From positions 43,744 through 107,743 of the forward strand of contig CAJOHV010000001.1 of assembly GCA_905234485.1 (NCBI GenBank): 64,000 nucleotides of DNA. Reading direction: 5' to 3'. The translations under genes and the position numbers were made by a program. This document shows, piece after piece, positions 7,806 through 23,588 of this stretch. The DNA comes from an uncultured Bacteroidales bacterium. Lineage in GTDB: Bacteria > Bacteroidota > Bacteroidia > Bacteroidales > UBA932. Every line of letters starts with the position of its first letter. Position 1 is the stretch's first letter. A model generated the notes under the pieces. It made no database searches and was not told where the DNA came from. It was given only the letters and a program-made list of their open reading frames with translations.

Positions 7806-7880
7806 AGAAGCTTAAGGCTATTTTGGTGCTAAGTTTCAGCGTTTTTCCGAAGGTTAGGGCATTTTTGAGGCTAAGCTTAG
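7806..7880. repeat. 75-bp REP-like bipalindrome, copy 1 (overlaps ribF 3' end)
   Basis: agaagcttaaggctattttggtgctaagtttcagc...ggctaagcttag; same length and layout as the 20079 and 23472 copies. Confidence 0.7.
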
Positions 7881-8807
7881 AACGGCGGAGGCGCGGTCCT
7901 TTTCGAGTTGAGCCTTCAGTTCCTCGAAGGAATTGAAATGTATCTCATCGCGGAGTTTGTCCACAAAAGTCACTTTCAGGTCGAGACCATATATTTCTTC
8001 GTCAAAGTCGAAAATGTTAGTCTCGATCTTTTCGTTATGGTCTATGTTGGTCATGCCCCACAACCGACGGCCCTCGACCTCAACCTTCGTCAGGTACGCT
8101 CCGACTCCAGGAAGGCACTTCAGCGGTTCGCGCAATTTCATGTTTGCAGTCGGAAAGCCTATCGTCCGGCCCATCATGTTTCCGCTCACCACCACTCCGC
8201 TCAAACTGTACTCGTATCCCAGCATCTGAGCCGCCGCTTTCACATCACCAACACTCAAAGATTTTCTGATTTTGGTGGAAGAAATGAATGCAGATTCGTT
8301 ATCAGCGGAGGGTGTCGCCCCCCAGGAAAACTGTGCCACCCTCGGCACCATAAGAGGGGGAACCGTGAACGAAGTGAACGGTGGGGTCGAGCGAAGCGAG
8401 ACGTTTTGTCGGGGGGCGACACTCTCCGCCAACTTCGCTATCTGCTCTGTACTAAGCCCATCCGATCCGAAACGGTTGTCGTAACCGAGGACGATGGAGG
8501 TGACGCCGTAGTCGCGCCGAAGCATTTCAAGATACTCGCGGGCAGTCAAAGCAGCGAAGTCGCGGGTGAAAGGCAGGACTTCGACGCGGTCCACGCCGAG
8601 CCCCTTCAAAATGGCGATTTTTTCATCCAGAGACGTCAACAATCGCAAATCGCGCGATCCGCCACGGAGGACGGTGCGGGGGTGAGGCCAGAAAGTGAGG
8701 ATGAGACTCTGCTCGGAGCGCTCGCGCGCCGTTTTGAGCAGAGTCTCTATCACTGCGCGATGTCCGAGGTGGACACCGTCGAAAAAGCCTGTCGCCGCTA
8801 CAGCCAT
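7854..8807 (-). CDS. ribF: Bifunctional riboflavin kinase/FAD synthetase
   Basis: AATGFFDGVHLGHRAVIETL...SSTKIRKSL...GRTIGFPTANM; contains an atypical ~40 aa insert. Confidence 0.92.
   Translation of the reverse strand: MAVAATGFFDGVHLGHRAVIETLLKTARERSEQSLILTFWPHPRTVLRGGSRDLRLLTSLDEKIAILKGLGVDRVEVLPFTRDFAALTAREYLEMLRRDYGVTSIVLGYDNRFGSDGLSTEQIAKLAESVAPRQNVSLRSTPPFTSFTVPPLMVPRVAQFSWGATPSADNESAFISSTKIRKSLSVGDVKAAAQMLGYEYSLSGVVVSGNMMGRTIGFPTANMKLREPLKCLPGVGAYLTKVEVEGRRLWGMTNIDHNEKIETNIFDFDEEIYGLDLKVTFVDKLRDEIHFNSFEELKAQLEKDRASAVLSLASKMP
8306..8430. repeat. GC-rich structured inverted-repeat element inserted in-frame in ribF
   Basis: Arms GCGGAGGGTGTCGCCCCCC / GGGGGGCGACACTCTCCGC (18/19, the mismatch being a possible G-U pair) around internal hairpins with CGAAGTG and GAGCGAAGCGA. 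Confidence 0.75.
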
Positions 8808-19285: not shown

Positions 19286-20257
19286 ATGTCAAAACTTCAA
19301 TTCCGCCCCGGCTTTCAACACATCTGTCAGCTCTCCGCCGATAAGGGAATCATCTTTTACACTATCGCTGACATCCTCGTTTATTATTCAATCTTTGCAA
19401 TCAGGTGTATTAAGGAAGAGATTATTGTGCTTGCCATCAGCATCATGCTTAATCACGTTCATTTCGAAGGCTATTTCAAACTGGAATCACGCATGGTCGC
19501 ACTCCTGCACGGAATCAATACTTCATTCGCAAAGACCTATAATTCCAATTACCACCTACAAGGTCCAGTGTTCCACCATGGCTTTCAGCACAGTCAAAGA
19601 TACGGCGAACAGAAAATCAGGGACGCTTTCATCTACATAGGAAATAATGGCAAAGTCAAAACTCCTGGAATTAATGCCGAGGATTATCGATGGAACCTCA
19701 TAAAGTACTTGGCGTCTCCCAATCCATTCAGCGATATGATTGACTATAAGACGGCGAGCCCAAATCTGTTATACCTTCTCTCTGACGTGTTGAACCGAAG
19801 ACGCAAACTTCAACCCCTTGACTATGGTTTTTTTGGCGATAAGTATCTAGCGCTCAATGAAATTGAAAGGCAGCAACTTATCGATTTCATCATCTCGGTA
19901 TACTATTGTCTGGACAGGGAAAAGATTATGCCTCTGTACGGCACTTATGACAATATCTGTACTGCCCTTAATGCAGTATCCGGCAGCGAACACGGTTTTG
20001 TCGACGATCTCTCAAAAGAAGATTACAGGCATTACTACAAGATGATGTCCATTTGCAGGCGACTTGGATACGACATTACGAAGCTTAGGTCGTTTTCAAC
20101 CCTAAGCTTAGCCGAATCGTCGAAGCTTGGCACCGAAAATGCCTTAAGCTTCGCACTCGAGCAAAACTATGGTTTTAGGAAACTGGCATCGACCCTCAGA
20201 GCGGAATCCGGTTGTTCAGACTACGAACTCGCGAAGTTCTTCCACCTGCTGGATTAA
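19286..20257 (+). mobile_element. RAYT-type Y1 (IS200-like HUH) transposase CDS with extended C-terminus
   Basis: HUH motif in IMLNHVHFEGYF; INTSFAKTYNSNYHLQGPVFHHGFQ...IRDAFIYIGNNGKVKTPGINAEDYRWN matches the Y1_Tnp layout with catalytic Tyr region. Confidence 0.8.
20079..20153. repeat. 75-bp REP-like bipalindrome, copy 2 (inside the RAYT ORF)
   Basis: Reverse complement cgaagcttaaggcattttcggtgccaagcttcgacgattcggctaagcttagggttgaaaacgacctaagcttcg; about 47/50 identical to copy 3 over the second part. Confidence 0.85.
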
Positions 20258-23471: not shown

Positions 23472-23546
23472 CGAAGCTTAGACACTTTTTAATACTAAGT
23501 TTCGACGATTCGGCTAAGCTTAGGGTTGAAAAAGGCCTAAGCTTCG
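23472..23546. repeat. 75-bp REP-like bipalindrome, copy 3 (intergenic)
   Basis: cgaagcttagacactttttaatactaagtttcgacgattcggctaagcttagggttgaaaaaggcctaagcttcg. Confidence 0.85.
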
Positions 23547-23552
23547 ACTCTC

Positions 23553-23588
23553 GGCTGCCCAATCCAAATCTTCTGCAGGCAGAAATAA
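23553..23588 (+). pseudogene. Displaced 3'-terminal fragment of der
   Basis: GGC TGC CCA ATC CAA ATC TTC TGC AGG CAG AAA TAA = [11 protein letters not shown], identical to the Der C-terminus; 33/36 nt, all three differences synonymous. Confidence 0.8.

Follow-up and report, generated by a model that had tools for sequence, protein, structure and literature searches.

The window, that is, the whole stretch of 64,000 nucleotides analysed here, includes a RAYT-like Y1/HUH transposase gene in which a REP-like repeat serves as coding sequence, and the locus raises the question of how the repeat came to be there and what it may do. The ORF (19286..20257, + strand, 323 aa) was recognised from the ORF list and from the profile matches of its relatives. 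The HUH motif NHVH (residues 56–59; 19451..19462, + strand) and the putative catalytic Tyr117 in YIGNN (19634..19636, + strand) follow each other in the expected order, with a HuH-Y spacing of 60. H57, H59, Y117, N120 and N121 are invariant in a 15-member alignment, which bears out the Y1/HUH hallmarks that an earlier note had read in this ORF. Alignment with REP-free relatives placed a conserved C-terminal RAYT segment at 20156..20254 (+ strand), after the REP.

The Pfam profile Y1_Tnp gave a mixed result: the window protein itself is a weak match below the cut-off (E 0.04, 14.5 bits, cut-off 23), but 14 of the 15 aligned RAYT relatives match (best E 1.8e-7). In addition, 11 of the 15 match the NCBIfam profile REP_Tyr_transpos (best E 1.2e-11). 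Because the relatives match both profiles, the product of the ORF is, on sequence grounds, a diverged RAYT (TnpAREP), as had been proposed. A profile search against the PDB returned weak transposase matches (E 0.01, 2xo6/2xm3) among unrelated 14-3-3 matches, and an AlphaFold model, made with two other sequences as input, was rejected as too poor to place the linker (pLDDT 48.7). The neighbours on either side, named from their protein sequences, are presumably xseA and der.

Inside this ORF, an in-frame segment of 26 codons (residues 265–290; 20078..20155, + strand), defined by BLAST, folding and a covariance model, lies after Tyr117 in the linker preceding the last 33 residues of the RAYT. It holds a 75-bp bipalindrome (20079–20153) with 72% identity to its own reverse complement (E 1.5e-5), built as two hairpins with a spacer of about 10 nt between them. 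A scan for perfect hairpins missed this REP owing to mismatches, and self-BLAST and folding-energy tests were used instead. The REP folds at −32.7 kcal/mol against a mean of about −15 kcal/mol, and none of 1000 synonymous recodings or 1000 codon-order shuffles is equally stable, which confirms the in-frame bipalindrome described before. Covariation in the REP stem exceeds that of all shuffles. Since all arms share one palindrome, pair counts favour two hairpins and one long fold about equally, and the covariance model took the long fold. Among the outer feet of 33 copies, GTAG and CGTC were each found in 0/33 and GTGG in 2/33, so the repeat is REP-like and not a canonical REP.

The genome from which the window comes (G000) contains the repeat at no fewer than 11 sites, as found by BLAST and extraction, each with an arm-to-arm length of exactly 73 nt. 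The reading in the earlier note depended on such copies elsewhere in the genome and on Y1_Tnp matches, and both are present, the latter among the relatives. That the palindrome arose by chance in an ordinary or decayed ORF, a view for which the low Y1_Tnp score of the window protein could be cited, is refuted beyond practical doubt by the lack of equally stable recodings or shuffles and by the number of genomic sites; moreover, four species preserve the ORF without interruption, and wherever dN and dS could be measured, dN is much the lower of the two. The repeats are palindromic, dispersed and mainly extragenic, with a low copy number of about 11–17 sites; canonical REPs usually number over 100. 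Scored for coding potential by hexamers, only the RAYT copy lies wholly within a gene in G000; the remainder are intergenic or at gene ends, and a further REP-gene overlap, at L006, was judged to result from a mis-set start codon.

Two further 75-bp copies had been reported in the window. The copy at 23472..23546 (− strand), in the engB-ntrY junction, is real and inverted, with 85.5% identity to the in-ORF REP (E 1.7e-17, BLAST), whereas the one at 7806-7880 (annotated as 7807..7879, + strand) is a diverged, weaker relative of the same family, with 75% identity over 53 bp in BLAST and a full-length match (E 6e-12) to a covariance model to which this copy itself contributed. Elsewhere in G000, at C7:40889-40963 (L067), a REP of the same architecture is built on another stem (ACAGGATGA) and represents a second family, or a relic one.

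Overlapping sets of genomes at genus and family level (400, 399 and 399) were searched and yielded further orthologues in three genomes (G006, G289 and G415), 54–58% identical to the window protein. The four RAYTs form one syntenic clade (support 100/99), sampled from four draft genomes, and in each of them the REP occupies the same linker, spans exactly 26 codons and is read in one shared frame. When orthologues with and without the segment were compared, as the earlier note had advised, the linker REP was absent from the next-nearest RAYTs (G399, G137, G048, G008, G290, G245, G231 and G669, the last from another genus than the others; about 34–42% identity). One ancestral insertion is the simplest reading of this sequence distribution, because the clade shares the 26-codon REP at the same linker and the next-nearest RAYTs have none. 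In G231, whose RAYT is more distant (about 35%), the covariance model has 34 matches when both strands are counted, and several of these are 75–76 nt long with CCCGCAGGGTA stems; such repeats in a genome with so distant a RAYT imply that the REP architecture predates the in-gene insertion.

The linker length is otherwise variable in the alignment, with extra residues in G006, and the in-ORF REP of G415 folds only moderately more stably than its recodings (50/1000), as a decaying copy. Outside the REP, the genes of G006 and G289 differ by dN 0.08 and dS 1.2–2.2, the latter near saturation. As judged from this pair, the RAYT gene outside the REP is under purifying selection; Yang-Nielsen estimates failed or were saturated in most pairs, and the G006/G289 value alone was relied on.

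The stems of the in-ORF copies fall into different types: GAAGCTTA in G000, CACAGGGT in G006 and G289, and one close to CAGGTCGA in G415. Each agrees with the dispersed REP copies of its own genome, which in G415 are few (one full and one partial). An orphan REP in G415, for which BLAST gave no second copy, was considered and rejected when the covariance model located one at the ntrY junction, along with a partial copy in another place. The stems of G000 and G006 are completely different (48–53% identity). The G006-type REP occupies about 17 sites in G006 and has a single weak partial match in G000, and the G000-type REP has no BLAST match in G006.

Stems so different might be taken to mean that REPs of different families entered the same linker independently in each lineage. 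The exact 26-codon length, frame and position common to the four species and the retention of REPs at further orthologous sites, where the copies again group by species, make such repeated entry highly improbable. Beyond the linker, the engB-ntrY junction holds a REP in G000, G006 and G289 (the G006 site orthologous to 23472–23546 is occupied by a G006-type REP) and is rearranged in G415, and a second REP junction outside the RAYT locus is shared by G000 (C11) and G006 (C14).

When the linker and engB copies of G000 and G006 were compared, 32 informative positions grouped the copies by species and 0 by site; for the linker, engB and downstream copies of G006 and G289, the counts were 4 and 0. 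Since every informative base separates the species and none separates the sites, the REPs, as far as these alignments reach, evolve in concert, the in-ORF copy included. Third-position identity between G006 and G289 reaches 92% within the in-ORF REP, against 56% for the remainder of the gene (p 2e-4).

Traces of rearrangement were also observed around these repeats. Directly adjoining the REP next to ntrY is a 37-bp stretch that repeats the 3′ end of der (window 23552–23588); in G415, two der 3′-end copies lie at the REP-ntrY junction (L098, about 8060–8160), and the engB-prs-der block is inverted between the RAYT and ntrY. The der copies and the inverted block suggest a past inversion or duplication at REPs.

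Among 48 other RAYT loci in the genus, 32 have the same repeat both upstream and downstream of the gene. This two-sided arrangement occurs in none of the four clade members (0/4), where no upstream flanking REP was found; G006 and G289 have one additional copy just downstream of the RAYT stop. The in-gene REP thus seems to have taken over from the flanking arrangement. G000 and G006 also encode several other RAYT paralogues each, flanked by unrelated palindromes (L046-L049, L050-L052). A different RAYT (L042, G007:C75) has a C-terminal tail encoded by a palindrome that ends at the stop codon, and in G231 (L095, C1) a REP-like hairpin (CCCGCACGT..ACGTGCGGG) shares sequence with the RAYT 3′ end and its stop codon.

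We propose, as a somewhat probable explanation, that an inherited RAYT received its cognate REP once, in frame, and that this copy has since changed with the genomic REPs and replaced the flanking ones. The ORF product would be a vertically inherited RAYT, by family a HUH/Y1 single-strand DNA endonuclease, and the REP would have inserted into the loop between the core and the C-terminal segment in the ancestor of the four sister species, where the protein would tolerate it. The in-ORF copy would remain part of the REP population of its genome, and a stem change in a lineage would alter all copies together, probably through REP-to-REP conversion or RAYT-mediated replacement. The enzyme presumably targets REPs of its own type, and linkage and co-variation between species point to the in-ORF REP as a putative substrate of the window RAYT. 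The gene would in this way carry its own substrate, with the in-ORF copy standing in for the flanking REPs of most RAYTs of the genus, and selection may keep enzyme and substrate linked. The missing GTAG foot speaks against this proposal, as do the moderate folding of the in-ORF copy in G415 and the scarcity of other copies in that genome. It is doubtful, though conceivable, that the in-ORF REP is furthermore an updatable cis-linked substrate or a master copy that holds the enzyme specificity and the genomic REPs in register.

The in-ORF hairpins, acting either within the mRNA or by providing a binding site, might instead let the RAYT limit its own expression, and the co-variation with genomic REPs would then follow from one protein having to recognise both. 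Such self-regulation would agree with the very stable mRNA hairpin, unequalled by any recoding, and with the upkeep of both hairpin and reading frame; it is unlikely, as translation is not usually blocked by a hairpin inside the gene and close to its 3′ end, and RAYTs are known to act on ssDNA, not RNA.

The main rival to our proposal is that the repeat is neutral and has no function. It would be a passenger that entered a permissive loop in frame long ago, is homogenised along with all other REP copies, and is retained because it can seldom be lost cleanly with the frame intact. REPs in the linkers of unrelated genes are already known (PMC3733652), the length of the RAYT linker is variable and the G415 copy is decaying, all of which would suit a passenger. 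The sole fully intragenic copy, however, is the one in the RAYT, it has a constant 26 codons in all four species, and the usual flanking REPs are missing in this clade; we regard a passenger as possible, though not probable.

The proposal that a probable REP lies within its own RAYT gene holds, but such an insertion has a precedent. In the parts of Quentin et al. (2018; PMC6006769) considered here, in-gene, in-frame REP insertion is described as predominant in TnpAREP subclass 2.4 (RAYT group 4), as a rule at a point between HuH and Y; these genes have GTAG-type REPs at their flanks as well. As far as those parts describe it, subclass 2.4 shares with the window RAYT the in-frame REP in a peripheral variable region and a YIxNNP-like Y motif. 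By the same source, the median HuH-Y spacing there is 88, against 60 here, and the insertion lies between HuH and Y, whereas here it follows the Tyr; the window RAYT also lacks the GTAG foot and the upstream flanking REP of a subclass described there with GTAG-type flanking REPs. Subclass 2.1 (RAYT group 1) resembles it in the NHVH/NHYH motif, the short HuH-Y spacing and the long C-terminal extension, but is reported without REPs and has the Y motif YIELNP or Y[IV]HLNP in place of YIxNN.

In the REPtron of Nunvar et al. (2010; PMC2817692), a RAYT is flanked by two inverted REPs, and RAYT and REPs change together. The linkage of a RAYT to dispersed REPs that change with it is common to both systems, but the REPs lie outside the ORF there and are coding here, and orthologues there are at most three REP point mutations apart, whereas whole stems have changed here. 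Intragenic REPs in other genes, such as uvrA and uvrB, and the Rickettsia palindromic elements (PMC3733652 and references therein) are likewise palindromes of about 20–30 codons, in frame and in protein linkers; their host genes are unrelated, while the host gene here probably encodes the cognate enzyme, with conservation across species. What appears to be new in the sequences analysed here is a REP located after the Tyr, in a RAYT whose spacing (60) falls outside that of subclass 2.4 (about 88), and a fixed 26-codon REP unit in four species together with the concerted replacement of its sequence. No match to these features was found in the part of the literature searched, and Figure S10 of Quentin et al. 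may include C-terminal in-gene REPs.

An enzyme and its repeat in one frame may bear on the question of how RAYTs and REPs remain matched to each other for long periods when, unlike ordinary transposons, they do not spread. The genome-wide rewriting of REPs can be followed at orthologous sites of the sister species, and three stem types with four enzymes form a natural series of matched pairs for the study of specificity switching and of the route of REP homogenisation. Over a long period, one stretch of DNA has doubled as hairpin repeat and protein linker. If the in-ORF REP is indeed a cis-linked, updatable substrate, a change of stem would shift the gene and all REP copies of the genome together.
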